Under the pieces are notes generated by a model. It made no database searches, had not been told where the DNA came from, and was given only the letters and a program-made list of their open reading frames with translations. From Spirochaetota bacterium (GTDB lineage Bacteria > Spirochaetota > UBA4802 > UBA5368), in assembly GCA_035477215.1 (NCBI GenBank), contig DATIKU010000031.1:62001-126000 (forward strand): a DNA stretch of 64,000 nucleotides, in the 5' to 3' direction. The position numbers were made by a program, and so were the translations under genes. This document shows, piece after piece, positions 40,425-48,851 of the stretch (within the stretch, counting starts at the first letter, position 1; every line of letters begins with the position of its first letter).

Positions 40425-41384
40425 ATGAAAATAACGAAGCATATCGCTCTCTTCGCGCTCATCGTATTCGCCTCGACCCCCGCTTCCTATTCGTGGGAGC
40501 CCTTCGACAGGGTCATCGCCGTCGTCAACGACAGGCCCATCGTCGAAAGCGAGGTGGCGGGCAGGCTAATTCGCCTTCAACAGAAAAAGAACGTTCCGCG
40601 AAACCGGCTCGCCTACGAGAGGAGCAGGCTGCTCGACCGGTTCATCGAGGACTCCATAGTTCTCCAGGAGGCCGAACAGCAGTCCATCGTCGTCAGCGAC
40701 GAGAAGGTGACCAATCATATTAAAAAACTCATGGGCCGCATGAACATTGCCTCGATGGACGATTTCAAGAAGCGTGTTGAAAAGGTCGAGAACGTCCCTT
40801 TCGACGAATACAGGGAGGATGTCCGCAAATCCCTCATCACCGAACAGGTTATGTCGCTGGCCATCGGAGTGACTCCCCCCTCCCGCAGGGAGGCCATGGA
40901 CTGGTACAACGCCAATAGGGTCAAACTCGGCTTCGAAGTCAACGTGAAACATATTCTCATTCGGCCCAAAAACGCCTCGCTCGGAGAGGAAAAGCGCGTG
41001 ATCGCCGAGATCAACGCGCTTCGCCAGCGCATTGCCCGCGGCGAATCCTTCGAACAGCTTGCCGCCGCGCACTCCGAGGACCCGGGTACCTCCCGGAAGG
41101 GAGGAGCGATCGGGTGGATGTCGCTTGCGGAACTCGACCCCTATTTCGCCAACCAGGTTTTCCAGATGAAGGACGGCCAGCTCTCGGGCGCCATCAAATC
41201 CGGTTTCGGATACCACCTGGTCAAATTCCTGGGCAAGAGGCCCGTAACCTTCGACTCGGTCGAGGACAGGATCGTCAGCATGCTTTTTCAGCAGAAGCTC
41301 GACGAGCAGTTCGCAAAATGGGTGGTGCAGCGCCGCAGGGAATCCGAGGTTCGAATCTACATGGAAGACTACGTAAAGGCGTAG
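40425..41384 (+). CDS. Periplasmic SurA/PrsA-type peptidyl-prolyl isomerase
   Basis: The 319-residue protein has a signal peptide (LIVFASTPASYSWE). A SurA N-terminal domain begins at FDRVIAVVNDRPIVESEV. One parvulin domain lies at about 175-265 (VKHILIRPKNASLG, AAAHSEDPGTSRKGGAIGWM, FGYHLVKFLGKR). It acts in the periplasm as an outer membrane protein chaperone and isomerase. Canonical SurA has two parvulin domains; this has one. It is followed ten bases later by the spiro-SPASM gene. Confidence 0.88.
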   Translation: MKITKHIALFALIVFASTPASYSWEPFDRVIAVVNDRPIVESEVAGRLIRLQQKKNVPRNRLAYERSRLLDRFIEDSIVLQEAEQQSIVVSDEKVTNHIKKLMGRMNIASMDDFKKRVEKVENVPFDEYREDVRKSLITEQVMSLAIGVTPPSRREAMDWYNANRVKLGFEVNVKHILIRPKNASLGEEKRVIAEINALRQRIARGESFEQLAAAHSEDPGTSRKGGAIGWMSLAELDPYFANQVFQMKDGQLSGAIKSGFGYHLVKFLGKRPVTFDSVEDRIVSMLFQQKLDEQFAKWVVQRRRESEVRIYMEDYVKA

Positions 41385-41393
41385 GAGGCCGCG

Positions 41394-42878
41394 TTGAAAG
41401 TCGATGCCCTGCTGTACATAGAAGACGGCCTCGCCGACGCCGACCTTGCCGTGGCCGGGGAATTCGTCCCCGACACGCTGCGGAACGCGCTTCTTACACT
41501 TGGCGTATTCGCCGCAGTCCACGTAACCGCGCCCGCGTCGTATTCCGGCGCTCTTGCCGGCACGCCCGGCTTCAGCGTCAGGAGCGACCGCGACGACGTC
41601 GCCTTCTGGAAACGCCTCTTCGCCGAAACCGGGGCGGACCATATCGCGCTCGTTTACGCCGACTCGCCGTTACTCGATCCCGAAATCATACGGGACATGC
41701 TCGGCGTTCACCTTCGCTATCTGGCCGAGTTCACCTATTCCGAGAACCTCCCGCGCGGATACTCCTGTGAGATCATCTCGCACGAGCTCGTCAAATCGGT
41801 GCCGGAATCCGACGGCACCATGCTTCCGCTCTCCGAGGTCGTCCGCTCGAATATCAACCAGTTCGACGTGGAGCTCTATTATCGCGATCCCGACATCAGG
41901 GAAAAACGCCTCTCATTCCGCTCGGGCGACCGGCGCGAACGGCGCATCATTGAAAATATCCTCTCCATCACAGGCAAAAAGCCCTCCTATGCGGAGATCG
42001 GGGACATAATCACCGCGAACCCTCAGGCGCTTCACGTCGGACCGTCATATCTCGAAATAGAGCTGACCGGGCGGTGCGATCTCGACTGCGTATTCTGCTT
42101 TCGGAAAAAGCTCTCCGCCGAGCGCGGGGATATGCAGACAAGTGTTTTTGAGCGGCTTATCGAGGGGCTTGCATCCTTCGGCCTCCCTTACTCACTCTGT
42201 TTCGGGGGTTCCGGAGAGCCGCTCATGCACGGATCGTTCTTCGAGCTTACATCGCGCGCCCTGTGCGAACCGCTCCTTAAAAATCTCATCCTCGAGACAA
42301 ACGGTCTTCTCGCCGGGGAGAACTTCGCCTCCTTCGTCCGATCGGCCGGCGACGGGAGGCTCCGCGTTATCGTCAACCTGAACGCGATCGACCCGGCGAC
42401 CTACGCGGCGCTCCACGGGGCGGATCACTTCGAGCGGGTGCACCGCAACGTACTCGCGCTCAGGGAGGCCCTGCCCGCGAAAGAAAGCCTCTATGTGCAG
42501 ATACTTAAAATCAATGAAACCGAGCCCTTCCTGGACCGCTATTACGACGCCTGGGAAAAGAACGGCGTTGCGATCATCCTACAGAAGCAAAACACCTATC
42601 TCGGTATGATCCAGGACCGTCGCTACAGCGACCTCTCTCCGCTCGAGCGGATTCCCTGCTGGCACCTTCAGCGAGACTGCTACGTCCTCTCAAGCGGCGC
42701 CGTCGCCTTCTGCAGGCAGGACGTCGACGGCGCTTCAGCACGCGGCACGCTCGCGAACGAGACGCTCCAGGCCGTCTGGGAAAAGTCGCGGGAATCGTTC
42801 GTGCGTGACTATAAGGGCGAACTGTCCTCCCGGCCCGATTGCCGCTCCTGCGACGAGTGGTATACCTTCAACCTCTAA
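41394..42878 (+). CDS. Spiro-SPASM radical SAM protein with an SpsF-like N-terminal domain
   Basis: The 494-residue protein starts at TTG after AGGAGG (five-base spacing). Residues 1-200 look like a diverged nucleotidyltransferase: YADSPLLDPEIIR, then ENLPRGYSCEIISHE. The same signatures occur in the SpsF-like protein two genes on ([10 protein letters not shown] and [15 protein letters not shown]). Residues from about 215 are a radical SAM domain with CDLDCVFC (C-x3-C-x2-C), and the C-terminus has the SPASM cysteines CWHLQRDC, CRQD and CRSC. This SPASM family is known only from spirochaetes. Its substrate is unknown. It belongs to the surfaces/glycan-like cluster with the next two genes (inference). 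Confidence 0.82.
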   Translation: MKVDALLYIEDGLADADLAVAGEFVPDTLRNALLTLGVFAAVHVTAPASYSGALAGTPGFSVRSDRDDVAFWKRLFAETGADHIALVYADSPLLDPEIIRDMLGVHLRYLAEFTYSENLPRGYSCEIISHELVKSVPESDGTMLPLSEVVRSNINQFDVELYYRDPDIREKRLSFRSGDRRERRIIENILSITGKKPSYAEIGDIITANPQALHVGPSYLEIELTGRCDLDCVFCFRKKLSAERGDMQTSVFERLIEGLASFGLPYSLCFGGSGEPLMHGSFFELTSRALCEPLLKNLILETNGLLAGENFASFVRSAGDGRLRVIVNLNAIDPATYAALHGADHFERVHRNVLALREALPAKESLYVQILKINETEPFLDRYYDAWEKNGVAIILQKQNTYLGMIQDRRYSDLSPLERIPCWHLQRDCYVLSSGAVAFCRQDVDGASARGTLANETLQAVWEKSRESFVRDYKGELSSRPDCRSCDEWYTFNL

Positions 42879-42901
42879 TTTAAGCCCACAGGAAAAACAA
42901 A

Positions 42902-43684
42902 ATGGTTGTAAATGGAGTCGTAAACGGCAGAAAGCTCAAACCGCGCGTTACCGCGGTAATTCAGGCGCGCATGCGGTCAAAGCGCCTTCCCGGAAAGGCG
43001 ATGCTCGAGCTGGCCGGCAGCCCGATGCTCGCCCATGTCATCGACCGGGCCCAGCGCATCGAGGGCGTCGAGGGCGTCGTCGTGGCCACCAGTATCGGCG
43101 AGGAGAACGCGCCCATCATTGAGCTCGCCCGGTCGATGAGCGCGGGCGTCTTCGTGGGATCGATCGACAACGTGCTTGAACGCTATTACCTCTCGGCCCT
43201 CGAATTCGGCGGGGACTACATCGTGCGCGTAACCGGTGACAACCCGTTCACCGACCCCGAATATGCATCAATGGCCGTCGAGATAGCGCTCGAATCGACC
43301 GCGGACCTCTGCTCTCTCTCCAATTTGCCGCTGGGCACCGCAGTAGAGATCATCAAACGCGAGGCCCTCGAGGAGGCCTATAAGCAGAACAGCAAGGCTT
43401 ATCACCGCGAACATGTAACCCCGTATATAAAGGAGCACCCCGAGCTCTTTCGTATAGAACGGCCCGCGGCCAACCTCAGGAATCCCCATCCCGACCTGCG
43501 CCTCACGGTCGACACCGAAGAGGACTTTCGACTTGCGGCTACGCTCTATGAAAACCTGTATCATGGGGAAGTGTTCCCGCTTGCGGACGTCATACAGTAC
43601 GTAAAAAAACACCCCGAAATAATTTCGCTTAACGCCGGGATCGGCCAGCGCTCCATGCGGCACGCGGAGAGCGGGAATGCCTGA
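42902..43684 (+). CDS. SpsF-like cytidylyltransferase family protein
   Basis: The 260-residue protein has the nucleotide-binding N-terminus [20 protein letters not shown], then [14 protein letters not shown] and [14 protein letters not shown]. This is the SpsF/CMP-KDO-like family, which activates or handles sugar acids or amino-sugar derivatives for surface polysaccharide or glycosylation. The gene starts 23 bases after spiro-SPASM and overlaps the next gene by eight bases. Its sugar substrate cannot be read from sequence. Confidence 0.86.
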
Positions 43685-44594
43685 ACCGCTGATCGCCATC
43701 CTCACCGGATGGGACGGCGCTCTCGGCCGCGGCCACGTCCAGCGGATGGCATCGCTTCTCAGCCATTTAAACGTTGATACCGGCATGCGTGCGACGCTTC
43801 TGGCCGACACCTGTCCCGATTTTTTCCCCGACGAACTGCGCCGTCACGTTCGGACCGGGCCGGATGGCCGCGTTTCGCTCTTCGTTCGCGACAGGCGCGA
43901 TTCGACCATCGAGGAGATTCGCCGCTTACAAAAATCGGCCCCTGTGCTCTGCGTCGACGACCTGGGTCCGGGGCGCGAGGCCGCCGACTACGCCGTCGAC
44001 CTGCTGCCCAATCCGTCTTCGAACGCGCCGCCCCATCAATCTGACCGAGGGCTCTTCCTTTACGGGTACGGCTTCCTTTCCGCGCTCGAAAAGCTCGGAG
44101 ACGCCGTCATGGAAAAGAACATCGACTACACCCTTTACGCCGGGGCCTTTCCGGCCGACGAGTACGTGAACTTCCTCGTTTCGCTTCTCCCTCCGGACGC
44201 CCGATTCGCCGTGTTCCGGGGAACGGGGTCGTTCATTCGCGACGGATCAACTACGAAGTCGGTCGGACAGGATGACTACGCCCGTCTCCTCCTCTCGTCC
44301 AGGGTGTTTATTTCGCACTTCGGCATCGCCCTCTACGAGGCCCGCGCGGCCTCATGCCGCCTGGTCGCTATCAACCCCTCGGAATACCATTCCCGCCTGT
44401 GCGATATCGCTCCCTCCGATCTCGGCATCCGGAACCTCGGAACGCGCGGCACACTGGATGCCGGATCGGCCGCCGAGGCAATCCGAGATTTCGCCTTCGC
44501 CCCGCACGGTATGAAGTTCTCCGCGGCGGACGTACACGCGGCCGCTCGAGAAAATCTTGACAGGTTCTCCGGGCTGCTCAGAAATATGGTCTAA
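43677..44594 (+). CDS. SpsG/PseG-like nucleotide-sugar hydrolase or glycosyltransferase
   Basis: The 305-residue protein begins with the GT-B-like N-terminus [18 protein letters not shown]; the GxGH segment is shared with SpsG and PseG. A second domain has [11 protein letters not shown] and [25 protein letters not shown]. Such proteins remove UDP from, or transfer, modified sugars in legionaminic, pseudaminic or spore-coat polysaccharide routes. It is the third gene in the spiro-SPASM / SpsF / SpsG set, with overlapping coding ends, so they very probably act together. Confidence 0.75.
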
Positions 44595-44677: not shown

Positions 44678-46609
44678 ATGGGCGACAACGTCGTTTACAA
44701 GATATTGAAAGACCACCTCCTCGAGGGCCGGCTCGTCCCGGGAAGTGAGATCGCCATCCGGATCGACCAGACACTCACCCAGGACGCCACGGGCACCATG
44801 GCGTATCTGCAGTTCGAAGCCATGGGCATACCCCGCGTGCGGACCGAGATCTCGGTCTCCTATGTCGACCACAACACCCTTCAGACCGGTTTCGAGAACT
44901 CCGACGACCACCGCTATCTCCAGACCATGAACGCGAACTATGGCATCCATTATTCGCGCGCCGGAAACGGCATCTGCCACCAGGTGCATCTCGAGCGTTT
45001 CGGGAGGCCCGGGGCCACCCTCCTGGGATCGGATTCGCACACACCCACGGGCGGCGGGATCGGCATGATCGCCATCGGCGCGGGTGGCCTCGACGTGGCG
45101 GCCGCGATGGGAGGCGGTCCGTTTTTCCTTGCATGTCCCCGTGTTATAAACGTGCATCTTATCGGCAGGCTCCGCCCCTGGGTGAGCGCCAAGGACATCA
45201 TCCTCCAGGTGCTCGCGACACTCACGACAAGGGGCAACGTTGGTACGATGATCGAATACACAGGCCCCGGCGTCACGACGCTCTCGGTGCCCGAGCGCGC
45301 CACCATCACCAACATGGGCGCCGAGCTCGGCGTCACCACGTCCGTTTTCCCGAGCGACGACATAACCCGCGAGTTCCTTCGCGCGCAGGCGAGGGGAAGC
45401 GCCTGGCGCGAGGTGTTGCCCGATCCGGACGCGACGTACGAGCGCACCATTGAGCTCGACCTGGCGAAGCTCGAGCCGATGATCGCTTGCCCGCATTCGC
45501 CCGACAATATCGAGAAAATCTCCACCCTCAAGGGCATGAAGATCGATCAGGTCGCCATCGGAAGCTGCACCAATTCTTCGTACCGAGACCTCGCCACCGT
45601 ATCGGCGATATTGAAGGGACGCAGGGTGCACCCCGACGTTAGCCTCGCGATAGCGCCGGGTTCACGCCAGGTCTTCGAGATGATTGCGCGCGACGGATCG
45701 CTCGCCGAAATGATCGCCGCGGGGGCGCGCATAATGGAATCGGCCTGCGGATTCTGCATAGGCGCCGGACAGGCCCCGCTGACCGGGGGCGTGTCGCTTC
45801 GCACCAACAACCGTAATTTCGAGGGGCGCTCCGGCACCAAATCCGCGCAGGTGTACCTGGTGAGCCCCGAAACGGCGACCCTTTCGGCGCTCGCCGGCGA
45901 GCTCGTCGATCCCATGGACATGCCGTCGGATATGTACCCGGCAATAGCCTCCCCTCTATCCTTTATCATCGACGACAGTATGATCATTCCGCCGTCCGAT
46001 ATAAGGACGCCCGTCTTCCGGGGACCGAATATCGGCGAACCGCCCCGTACCGACCCGCTCCTCGATACGATCAAGGGCATAGTTCAGCTGAAAGTGGGCG
46101 ACAAGATCACCACCGACCATATCATGCCCGCCGGCGTGCGTCTCATCTATCGCTCCAACATCCCGAAATACGCCCAGTACGTTTTCGAAAATGTCGACCC
46201 GGCTTTCTCCGCACGGGCGCTCGCGGGAAAAGCGCAAAGCCTGTACACCGCCATTCTCGGAGGTCACAGCTACGGCCAGGGATCGAGCCGCGAACACGCG
46301 GCGATCTGTCCAATGTATCTGGGGGTGCGCATCGTCATGGCCAAGTCGTTCGAACGGATTCACGCGGCGAACCTGGTTAATTTCGGCATACTGCCGCTCG
46401 TGCTCGCGAACGAGTCGGATTACGAGCTCATTTCGCAGGGACAGGAGTTCGCGGCAACGGAGCTTCATTCGCGCGTTTCGGGAGAAGGCCGGATCGGCAT
46501 ACGGATCGGCGGAAGGGAATTCGAATTCGATCTTCAGGCCACGCGTCGTCAGCGCGATATCCTGATGGACGGAGGGCTTCTAAACTACACGCGCTCCCGC
46601 ATGCGATAA
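44678..46609 (+). CDS. Aconitate hydratase (Aquifex-type, single-chain short form)
   Basis: The 643-residue protein joins the LeuC-like part (TLTQDATGTMAYLQFEAMG, SDSHTPTGGGIGMIAIGAGG) with a C-terminal swivelling part (GHSYGQGSSREHAAICPMYLG). The 4Fe-4S ligands are in GSCTNSSY near 296 and CGFCIGAG near 356. It isomerises citrate and isocitrate in the TCA cycle. The length fits the short aconitase group first seen in Aquifex. A ribosome site AGGAG precedes ATG 44678. Its 3' end overlaps the convergent HNH gene by 30 bases. Confidence 0.9.
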   Translation: MGDNVVYKILKDHLLEGRLVPGSEIAIRIDQTLTQDATGTMAYLQFEAMGIPRVRTEISVSYVDHNTLQTGFENSDDHRYLQTMNANYGIHYSRAGNGICHQVHLERFGRPGATLLGSDSHTPTGGGIGMIAIGAGGLDVAAAMGGGPFFLACPRVINVHLIGRLRPWVSAKDIILQVLATLTTRGNVGTMIEYTGPGVTTLSVPERATITNMGAELGVTTSVFPSDDITREFLRAQARGSAWREVLPDPDATYERTIELDLAKLEPMIACPHSPDNIEKISTLKGMKIDQVAIGSCTNSSYRDLATVSAILKGRRVHPDVSLAIAPGSRQVFEMIARDGSLAEMIAAGARIMESACGFCIGAGQAPLTGGVSLRTNNRNFEGRSGTKSAQVYLVSPETATLSALAGELVDPMDMPSDMYPAIASPLSFIIDDSMIIPPSDIRTPVFRGPNIGEPPRTDPLLDTIKGIVQLKVGDKITTDHIMPAGVRLIYRSNIPKYAQYVFENVDPAFSARALAGKAQSLYTAILGGHSYGQGSSREHAAICPMYLGVRIVMAKSFERIHAANLVNFGILPLVLANESDYELISQGQEFAATELHSRVSGEGRIGIRIGGREFEFDLQATRRQRDILMDGGLLNYTRSRMR

Positions 46610-47191
46610 CGGCGCACAGGCGCCGTCGGAAATAAGGTCGATGATCTTGACGTTGACCAGACAGAAGGGAAGCCATCCCTTTTTCTCGGCCTTGTCGTGC
46701 GAGATGACCAGGTGCGGCATGTACTCGGGCTCGAACGGCTCCCGGAGCAGCGCCCAGCCGATCTCGTTCATCAGCCGGTTTCCCTTTCTGCTGTTACACC
46801 ACCTGCACGCGCACACCAGGTTCCTCCAGCTCGCGAAACCGTCGGTGAGCACTCTGCCGGTAATCGACTCCCATCTGCTGCGCGGAATGACGTGATCGAC
46901 GGTAAGCTCTCGCATGGAATACCGGCGCCCGCAGTACTGGCAGGCCATGTCGTCGCGGTAGATGACGTTAAGCTTCGAGAAGGCCACCCTTTTTCTCGGG
47001 AAGCCGCTGTAACCGACCACGGATATAACCGAGGGCATGCGGATCGACAGGGACGGCGAGCGCACATACCGGTCTTCCTCGAGTACGGATACCGCCTTCA
47101 TGGACGTGAGCAGGCATATCGCCTCCTTCACCGAGGTGACCCGTATCGGAATGAATCCCGCGTTAAGCACCAGCACTTCCGAGGTCAACAT
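46580..47191 (-). CDS. HNH endonuclease-domain protein
   Basis: This protein of about 203 residues has an HNH motif with four cysteines for zinc: CQYCGRRYSMRELTVDHVIP near 75-95, then NLVCACRWCNSRKGNR. The N-terminus, VLVLNAGFIPIRVTSVKEAI, is typical of the stand-alone HNH family found across many bacteria. Its in vivo role is unknown. I chose ATG 47191; a GTG at 47209 is possible but neither has a good ribosome site. A strong hairpin lies just upstream, and the gene ends inside the aconitase gene. Confidence 0.82.
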   Translation of the reverse strand: MLTSEVLVLNAGFIPIRVTSVKEAICLLTSMKAVSVLEEDRYVRSPSLSIRMPSVISVVGYSGFPRKRVAFSKLNVIYRDDMACQYCGRRYSMRELTVDHVIPRSRWESITGRVLTDGFASWRNLVCACRWCNSRKGNRLMNEIGWALLREPFEPEYMPHLVISHDKAEKKGWLPFCLVNVKIIDLISDGACAPLSHAGARVV

Positions 47192-47498
47192 CTCTATTCG
47201 TCTCGTCACGTTGAAATTAAGAACCCATAGCTTTCGCTATGGGTTCGAGCTTCGCACCTTTGTGGTGAATGTGTTCCGTTTTTTTCGTTTACTCATCGCT
47301 TCCATGGCACGCACCCGCCTCAATGAGCGCCATACGACAGACCTCCAATAATTAAAACTTTAGCCTGTTTGTCAAGTTAATTTTTCCGCCGCGGAACCGG
47401 CGGCGAATTGCCATCAATGTAATTTTTTCTTGAAAAATTTCATTTTTTGCCGTACTGTCTGCCTGGTAACGAACACATCACGGGAACAGGGAAACCAA
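47192..47498 (+). other. Divergent region upstream of the LysM lipoprotein gene
   Basis: This 307-base gap holds the hairpin at 47222-47245, an A/T-rich stretch and a possible plus-strand promoter, TTGAAA (47430-47435) and TACTGT (47453-47458), 17 bases apart, before the LysM gene. A further GC stem, CCGCCG-CGGAAC-CGGCGG (47386-47403), has no T-run after it. Confidence 0.4.
47222..47245 (-). promoter_or_regulatory. Hairpin with a GAAA-type loop upstream of the HNH gene
   Basis: On the minus strand AACCCATAGC-GAAA-GCTATGGGTT forms a perfect 10-bp stem closed by a GNRA tetraloop. It lies about 13-36 bases before the GTG start and 31-54 before the ATG start of the HNH gene. No U-run follows, so it is not a terminator. 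It could be a leader structure or protein-binding site that controls translation. Confidence 0.45.
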
Positions 47499-48851
47499 AT
47501 GAATAATAACCATATCCGGCGCGCCGCGTATCTCGCGTTGATCCTACTGCCGCTGGCCTTCGCACTATCCTGCCGACTCGATGTCCCCATCCGAGAGATG
47601 ACCCGCGCGAAAACCACAATTGGACGCGCGATAGAAGTAAAGGCCGAAAAGTACGCCCCCGAGGAGTTGAAACAGGCCGAGGCCTCCCTGCTTAAAAGCC
47701 ATGAATACATAACCGCCGAGGACACTAAAAAAGCCGCCGATGAGGCGCTGAAATCCATCAGCCGGGCGGAGGCCGCGATCGCCAAGGCCCTTCCTCTCCT
47801 GGCCGCCGGGTCCATGGACGAAGCCGGAAAAGAGTACACCGAAGCGGAGGCCCTTTACGCCGAGAAACTGGCACCAGAGGAATTCACCGCGGCGGGCGAT
47901 TCGCTCAAACTGGCCGGGGCGCGATCAACGGAGCGGGCGTATTGGGAGTCCCATCTTGCATCGCTCGAGTCCAGAAGACAGAGCGCCGCGGCGAAATCAA
48001 AAGCCATGACGGGGCTTCCCGGCATACGGAGCGAAATGGACCGCATCCGTACCGAATCCGACCAGCTTAAAAAGAACCGGGGGACCGAATTCGCCGCCGA
48101 TGAGCTCGCGGCCATCGACGAAAAGCTCGCAAAAGCGGAAACCGCGCTGGCTGAAAATTACATCAAAGAGGCCGCCGGAGTCCTTGCCGGAAGCGATGAG
48201 CTTCTGACCGCGGCCACTGAAAAGACCTATGAGGCTCTCGCCCGCGAGAGCCTCGCCGCCGCCGAAACCGCGCTTGTCAGGGCCAAAGACACCGGCATGG
48301 ACGATGAGTTCTCAACCGAAATCCACAGCGCCGGCTCGCTGATCGTCGAAAGTAAAACGCACCTCGGAAACAGGGCCTTTCAGAATTCCCTCGAAAAATC
48401 CGGGGAGGCCATCGCGATTCTGAACGCGATGGCGATCGCCATCGAAAAGAAGGCCGACGAGGCACGGCTTGCCGCGGTAGAAAAAGCCGGCGAATATACG
48501 GATGATAAATCGGTTTCCCCCCCCGGAGAGGACGATACCGATTTCATACAGCCTTCCGTCAAGGAATACGTGGTAAAATTCGACCCGAAAAAGCGGGACT
48601 GTTTGTGGCGCATCTCGCTATACGTCTACCGCGACGCACGCCTGTGGCCGCTCATCTACGTCGCCAATCGGGATAAAATCAAGGACCCCGACCTCATCTT
48701 CCCCGGACAGAAGTTCGCGATCCCACCCATTCCAAGGAAAAAAAAGGGAAAGGCCGTGGAGGCGGAAATCATAAAAGACGCATCCGGGAAAACCGCCGAA
48801 ACGCCGCTCGGCCCGGTGGAAAACGACAAGGCTGACCGGCCGTCGGAATAG
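47499..48851 (+). CDS. LysM-domain lipoprotein with helical repeats
   Basis: The 450-residue protein has a signal peptide with lipobox FALSC. The middle (about 30-320) is alpha-helical with recurring units: YAPEELKQAEASL, LAPEEFTAAGDSL and FAADELAAIDEKL, about 80-100 residues apart. The LysM domain is near 355-405 (CLWRISLYVYRDARLWPLIY, DLIFPGQKFAIP), followed by a charged tail. LysM binds peptidoglycan, so the protein may link the outer membrane and cell wall. Similar LysM lipoproteins occur in spirochaetes. ATG 47499 is preceded by AGGGAAA. Confidence 0.8.
   Translation: MNNNHIRRAAYLALILLPLAFALSCRLDVPIREMTRAKTTIGRAIEVKAEKYAPEELKQAEASLLKSHEYITAEDTKKAADEALKSISRAEAAIAKALPLLAAGSMDEAGKEYTEAEALYAEKLAPEEFTAAGDSLKLAGARSTERAYWESHLASLESRRQSAAAKSKAMTGLPGIRSEMDRIRTESDQLKKNRGTEFAADELAAIDEKLAKAETALAENYIKEAAGVLAGSDELLTAATEKTYEALARESLAAAETALVRAKDTGMDDEFSTEIHSAGSLIVESKTHLGNRAFQNSLEKSGEAIAILNAMAIAIEKKADEARLAAVEKAGEYTDDKSVSPPGEDDTDFIQPSVKEYVVKFDPKKRDCLWRISLYVYRDARLWPLIYVANRDKIKDPDLIFPGQKFAIPPIPRKKKGKAVEAEIIKDASGKTAETPLGPVENDKADRPSE

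Follow-up and report, generated by a model that had tools for sequence, protein, structure and literature searches.

What does a protein do that carries a radical SAM barrel and a SPASM domain behind an unannotated N-terminus, and that is encoded directly beside genes resembling those of sugar activation? This question is raised by a spiro-SPASM gene (family TIGR04321) found in a stretch of 64,000 nucleotides from a Spirochaetota bacterium (GCA_035477215.1), which we call the window. A literature search found no paper naming the TIGR04321 spiro-SPASM family. The present analysis traces the N-terminus of this family to a nucleotidyltransferase, ties the family to nonulosonic acid (NulO) and Maf, and describes the repeated loss of its radical SAM motif.

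Organisation of the Locus

The window protein scores above the curated TIGR04321 cut-off of 250 bits (Table 1). An AlphaFold2 model of the whole protein (pLDDT 89.7, pTM 0.89) contains the nucleotidyltransferase-like N-terminal domain followed by a radical SAM/SPASM module resembling SuiB, BtrN, SkfB, BlsE and DesII. The SpsF-like protein encoded next is orthologous to the Leptospira cytidylyltransferase 6oew (E 3e-45) and is the sole full CTP_transf_3 match in the window's genome. The SpsG-like protein, P0003, gave no direct match in Pfam, NCBIfam or the PDB. Its homologues in related loci matched the PseG model TIGR03590 (E 6e-13 to 3e-10) at 40–49 bits against a cut-off of 153.55, and on these sequence scores we describe P0003 as PseG-like and do not assign it as PseG. 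The SurA/PpiC-type foldase family upstream also precedes spiro-SPASM in 24 sampled loci; it is context and lies outside the mechanism proposed below.

Further along the window, an HNH endonuclease-domain protein of 209 aa (46580-47209, minus strand) lies beside an aconitase-family gene, with no tie to spiro-SPASM seen. A 473-aa protein (47430-48851, plus strand) has a DUF4398 match and a C-terminal stretch that looks LysM-like by eye.

Table 1. Features of the spiro-SPASM locus, in window coordinates.
Feature	Coordinates	Strand	Evidence
SurA/PpiC-type periplasmic foldase, directly 5' of spiro-SPASM	40425..41384	+	PF00639, PF09312
Spiro-SPASM protein, 494 aa, TTG start	41394..42878	+	TIGR04321, 375.9 bits, E 3e-112
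N-terminal degenerate nucleotidyltransferase domain (SpsF/CMP-NulO-synthetase-like), residues ~1-205	41394..42008	+	hhalign, AlphaFold2, Foldseek
Radical SAM barrel, residues ~214-400	42033..42593	+	PF04055, E 3.7e-13; closest PDB sequence BtrN 4m7t, E 2.3e-15
CX3CX2C motif CDLDCVFC, residues 228-235, intact in the window	42075..42098	+	Motif search
C-terminal SPASM/twitch-type domain	42651..42875	+	PF13186, E 1.2e-4, above cut-off; C422, C440, C483 and C486 columns
SpsF-like cytidylyltransferase, 260 aa, catalytic signature intact	42902..43684	+	PF02348, E 1.5e-34
SpsF residues 21-32, with the CTP-binding signature QARxxSxRLPGK that is missing from the fused copy	42962..42997	+	
SpsG/PseG-like protein (P0003), overlapping the SpsF stop	43677..44594	+	GxGHxxR motif kept

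Origin of the N-Terminal Domain

The N-terminal domain is unannotated because its single-sequence Pfam match is only marginal (CTP_transf_3, E 0.038). The sequence-only reading had taken it for an SpsF-type nucleotidyltransferase fused to the radical SAM/SPASM part, on the grounds of two motifs shared with the neighbouring SpsF-like protein. Both motifs are present and equally spaced. In spiro-SPASM, YADSPLLDPE contains D90, P92 and D95 and ENLPRGYSCEIISHE contains P120 and G122; in the SpsF-like protein the first matching motif contains D113 and the second P143 and G145, with D90 to P120 and D113 to P143 both spanning 30 residues. The two proteins match in pairwise BLASTP (E 5e-7), and positions 20-225 of the TIGR04321 profile match the SpsF-like protein (E 1.7e-7). 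Alignment of 27 N-terminal domains to 23 SpsF proteins with hhalign gave a probability of 97.6% and an E value of 2.6e-12 over 190 columns.

Structure prediction, one of the checks that the same reading had proposed, returned a Rossmann-like nucleotidyltransferase fold for residues ~1-205 (AlphaFold2, pLDDT 93.4, pTM 0.89). The best solved fold for this model in Foldseek was 6oew_A (E 7e-10, TMq 0.76), ranked ahead of IspD, GlmU, NeuA and KdsB, and 6oew_A was also the best PDB sequence for the domain profile (E 3e-4). The marginal Pfam match and an overall identity to SpsF of ~19% in the profile alignment would suit a domain that merely shares a Rossmann-like fold and is no copy of SpsF. Against this, the profile match is collinear across its full length, the P-x-G and D motifs are spaced identically in both proteins, and the nearest structure is an SpsF orthologue in preference to other nucleotidyltransferases, which leaves the shared-fold explanation highly improbable. 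Profiles and models together show that this domain has the Rossmann-like fold of nucleotidyltransferases and is homologous to CTP_transf_3.

State of the CTP Site

In the SpsF alignment, Q21, R23, S26, R28, L29 and K32 are invariant. The corresponding signature, R..[ST].R.[PAV].K, is carried by 78 of 86 SpsF proteins but by no N-terminal domain out of 87. SpsF D204, presumably the second metal-binding aspartate by analogy with KdsB, faces R176 in the profile–profile alignment, which is a variable column in the spiro-SPASM family. SpsF R200 corresponds to spiro-SPASM R172, kept in 87/87, and among the other spiro-SPASM members the D motif is kept as well as P-x-G (the latter in >90%).

The fused domain therefore shares with SpsF-type CMP-NulO synthetases (CTP_transf_3, including Leptospira 6oew and Bacillus subtilis SpsF) the fold, the P-x-G and D motifs and R172/R200, but has neither QARxxSxRLPGK nor an equivalent of D204, and the combination of CTP-binding signature and metal-binding aspartates was not found in it. 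Since the signature is missing from every N-terminal domain, the domain should not activate sugars. It is homologous to nucleotidyltransferases but should not be classed as an active one; judged by its residues, it is almost certainly a catalytically dead copy of SpsF. Ligand binding without nucleotidyl transfer would be the natural reading of such a domain.

Radical SAM Motif and Auxiliary Cysteines

The window protein has the CX3CX2C motif of active radical SAM enzymes. Among 87 non-redundant spiro-SPASM members, the motif is present in 49, including the window protein, and missing in 38 (~40%), where absence means no such motif anywhere in the sequence. The auxiliary-cluster cysteines are nearly invariant over the same set (C422, C440 and C483 in 87/87, C486 in 86/87), and GEP 274-276, E301, K398, D413 and P416 are largely kept in motif-keeping and motif-lacking groups alike.

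Trees were built without the motif columns. The state of the motif changes 10 times on a quick tree of 87 rows and 7 times on a careful tree, thinned to 58 rows with long branches removed, where supported branches force at least 6 of the changes. We read these changes as losses because re-gain of the canonical motif is unlikely. An alignment artefact was rejected because searching whole sequences for the motif, with no alignment involved, again divides the members 49/38. Pseudogenes were rejected as a general cause, the sampled ORFs being full length with their other conserved residues kept, and so was inflation of the count by long branches, as the tree without them still needs 7 changes, 6 of them forced. 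Motif-lacking loci include those of Treponema sp. RGIG1479 (L031) and a Leptospirales MAG (L027). The gene order SPASM-GT2-SpsF-SpsG/methyltransferase-ATP-grasp-amidase-GerM-FlaA is the same in L082, where the motif is kept, and L101, where it is lost.

With CX3CX2C gone from so many members and the auxiliary cysteines retained, radical chemistry cannot be the shared role of the family. Spiro-SPASM resembles radical SAM enzymes that have a SPASM/twitch domain, such as BtrN, in its barrel fold, a GGE-like GEP motif, a four-Cys auxiliary site and, for the window protein, CX3CX2C; the N-terminal nucleotidyltransferase fusion and the frequent motif loss set it apart from them. A precedent for a SPASM-containing pseudo-SAM protein is TIGR04347 of Halobacteria, which is weakly similar to spiro-SPASM (E 2e-8). 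Unlike in that type, the loss in spiro-SPASM occurred within one family, at least 6–7 times, with auxiliary cysteines kept (86–87/87) and the operon unchanged.

Phyletic Distribution

Of 149 Spirochaetota genomes, 142 carry TIGR04321 and 148 encode flagellin (PF00669); in a wider draw, flagellin was found in 330 of 392 genomes. Spiro-SPASM is present in 165 of the 174 flagellated Spirochaetota genomes tested, and the nine without it are eight Borrelia-like genomes (f33, 0.9–1.8 Mb) and the genome G260. The labels Borrelia-, Sphaerochaeta-, Treponema- and Brachyspira-like are ones that we infer for the genomes from their size, base composition and flagellin status. Among genomes lacking flagellin, spiro-SPASM occurs in 0 of 64, made up of seven genomes of genus g72 and 57 others, with 41 of the 57 flagellin-lacking calls read from absence in the complete list of flagellin positives. 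Joint losses are seen within families. Genus g72 of family f39 lost flagellin and spiro-SPASM, and its sister genus g77 has both; in family f43, g124 and g128 lost both and g91 and g109 have both.

The remaining genes of the putative pathway were followed in a panel of 80 genomes. All 52 genomes with spiro-SPASM have both an SpsF orthologue and Maf, and 51 of them have NeuB. In the 23 genomes without flagellin, a strong SpsF match was found in none, NeuB in four and Maf in one (weak), and in four Borrelia-like genomes with flagellin SpsF, NeuB and Maf were each found in none. Spiro-SPASM has nearly the same phyletic profile as flagellin, NeuB, CMP-NulO synthetase and Maf, with G260 as the one unexplained exception. 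This flagellated genome (family f40; 93% complete, ~170 contigs) has NeuB and Maf and lacks spiro-SPASM and SpsF, and its two family relatives carry spiro-SPASM; the missing genes may fall in a gap of the assembly or may truly have been lost.

In principle, any process linked to the flagellum could explain why the gene is lost along with flagella. Because Borrelia-like genomes keep flagellin but lack spiro-SPASM, SpsF, NeuB and Maf, the protein tracks the pathway of glycosylation and not the flagellum as such, a separation that comes solely from this one lineage. Beyond Spirochaetota, one locus of another phylum matched, in the radical SAM part only and at 27% identity, which agrees with the earlier description of the protein as confined to spirochaetes.

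Gene Neighbourhood

Of 60 sampled loci, 40 have SpsF no more than 1.3 kb downstream of spiro-SPASM and in the same orientation, and the suggestion that the SpsF- and SpsG-like neighbours are partners of spiro-SPASM is borne out by this recurrence. In 19 of the 60, SpsF falls outside the fetched neighbourhood, and three of these loci are near a contig end. Ten loci from seven families have the gene for the flagellar sheath protein FlaA further downstream in the same orientation, and PF04620 confirms it in seven of these loci. NeuB adjoins the SpsF orthologue in two genomes (G010 and G021); in the window's genome it stands alone on a different contig, C30 (L132:9206-10243), has a SAF domain, and scores between the NeuB_NnaB and PseI models and under both cut-offs.

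Treponema-like genomes encode a single protein of ~860–880 aa (862–881 aa in L099:11502-14147 and L100:11328-13916) that joins SpsF, the SpsG-like protein and a class I methyltransferase (Methyltransf_23) and is preceded by a GT2-like gene. In loci related to these, an ATP-grasp ligase often follows the cassette (L101:14011-15579, L120:4104-5870, L118:4573-6141; LAL_C2 type in two of three) and could join an acyl group to the NulO via an amide bond. In four Brachyspira-like loci, a small hydrophobic ORF of 137 aa with no Pfam match (L084:10404-10817) directly follows spiro-SPASM, and SpsF is located elsewhere.

A role in LPS/Kdo was also considered. No typical KdsB is evident in the window's genome, because it contains no other CTP_transf_3 protein save a sub-cut-off match (21 bits).

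Relation to Known Pathways and Competing Roles

For the sps genes of B. subtilis there is experimental support for a pathway to CMP-legionaminic acid (PMC7439481), which favours reading SpsF and SpsG as NulO genes. In Treponema denticola the FlaB glycan has a mass of 450.2 Da (PMC9481697), and both filament assembly and motility are reported to require flagellin glycosylation (Kurniyati 2017, cited in PMC9481697). Putative glycans have been described between core and sheath for Leptospira FlaB1 (PMC13144727). The spirochaete genes share NeuB, a CMP synthetase, a PseG-like protein, Maf and the tie to flagellin with Maf-dependent NulO glycosylation of flagellin in Aeromonas, Campylobacter and T. 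denticola; in contrast to the known pathway, spirochaetes add the nucleotidyltransferase–radical SAM–SPASM fusion. The glycan role put forward from the sequence is strongly supported, and the phyletic profile and flaA linkage narrow it to flagellin nonulosonate glycosylation, the pathway to which the locus very probably belongs.

Within such a pathway, the first interpretation of the gene was that of an enzyme that could modify an activated sugar or glycan. In a more specific form, it would oxidise, deoxygenate or epimerise a CMP-NulO held by the N-terminal domain in the manner of BtrN, DesII or BlsE. The window member, with CX3CX2C and GEP intact, is suited to this, and BtrN, an aminocyclitol enzyme, is its closest solved sequence and is joined by BlsE and DesII among its structural matches. 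Its auxiliary cysteine spacing of 18/43/3 also resembles that of BtrN's single auxiliary cluster. As a general statement the interpretation is not supported: the 38 members without CX3CX2C, Treponema L031 among them, keep the gene, an unchanged operon and the auxiliary cysteines, and the CTP signature is gone throughout. It can hold for motif-keeping lineages only, and we consider it unlikely.

The appearance of SuiB-, SkfB- and anSME-type SPASM proteins among the top structural matches, and of the gene in flagellin-bearing genomes and upstream of flaA, would fit a SPASM part that recognises flagellin (or Maf) and modifies or presents flagellin instead of a sugar. The fused domain has a sugar nucleotidyltransferase fold, however, its constant neighbours are sugar-nucleotide genes, and Borrelia-like genomes have flagellin but lack spiro-SPASM together with SpsF, NeuB and Maf; a protein-directed role is, on balance, quite improbable. 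In other bacteria, genes of the SpsF/NeuB type are also used in making capsules and O-antigens, and the sps genes of B. subtilis serve to coat its spores (PMC7439481). A further candidate is a pathway for envelope polysaccharides or lipid glycans in general, lost with flagella only incidentally. The absence of spiro-SPASM from all flagellin-less genomes, the co-losses within f39 and f43, the same profile in Maf and the flaA linkage in seven families all oppose an incidental loss, and we hold this explanation to be very unlikely.

Proposed Role of Spiro-SPASM

The best explanation of the whole, to which we give an even chance of being right, is that the locus serves the last steps of NulO glycosylation of flagellin, with spiro-SPASM as a dedicated, dead-SpsF partner. 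The SpsG-like protein, together with NeuB from elsewhere in the genome, would make the NulO, the SpsF-like enzyme would activate it with CTP, and Maf proteins, also encoded elsewhere, would transfer it onto flagellin. Spiro-SPASM would have arisen when a duplicated, catalytically dead SpsF domain was fused to a radical SAM barrel and a single-cluster SPASM/twitch domain. The dead domain may bind the CMP-NulO product or pair with SpsF, and the protein may retain the activated sugar or pass it on. Where a lineage has kept CX3CX2C, as the window's has, the barrel may add a radical modification of the NulO or its acyl chain, which would be a lineage-specific extra dispensed with at least 6–7 times.

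An inactive SpsF-like partner with a specific hand-over of CMP-nonulosonate is the mechanism that we favour, at even odds or slightly below. With confidence well short of even, we also suggest that spiro-SPASM could define a class of SPASM proteins with a conserved function for which radical chemistry is not required. In such proteins a dead CMP-NulO synthetase domain and an obligatory auxiliary Fe-S site would together stand between CMP-NulO synthesis and Maf, handing the sugar over or gating its passage.

The analysis names a pathway member that, Borrelia-like genomes aside, occurs in almost every flagellated spirochaete tested. It also describes a radical SAM family that has repeatedly discarded its catalytic cluster motif and kept its auxiliary motif, which bears on the purpose of auxiliary Fe-S sites. 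If the suggested hand-over or gating role is true, the periplasmic flagella of nearly all spirochaetes would depend on a protein that is a pseudo-radical-SAM in many lineages.
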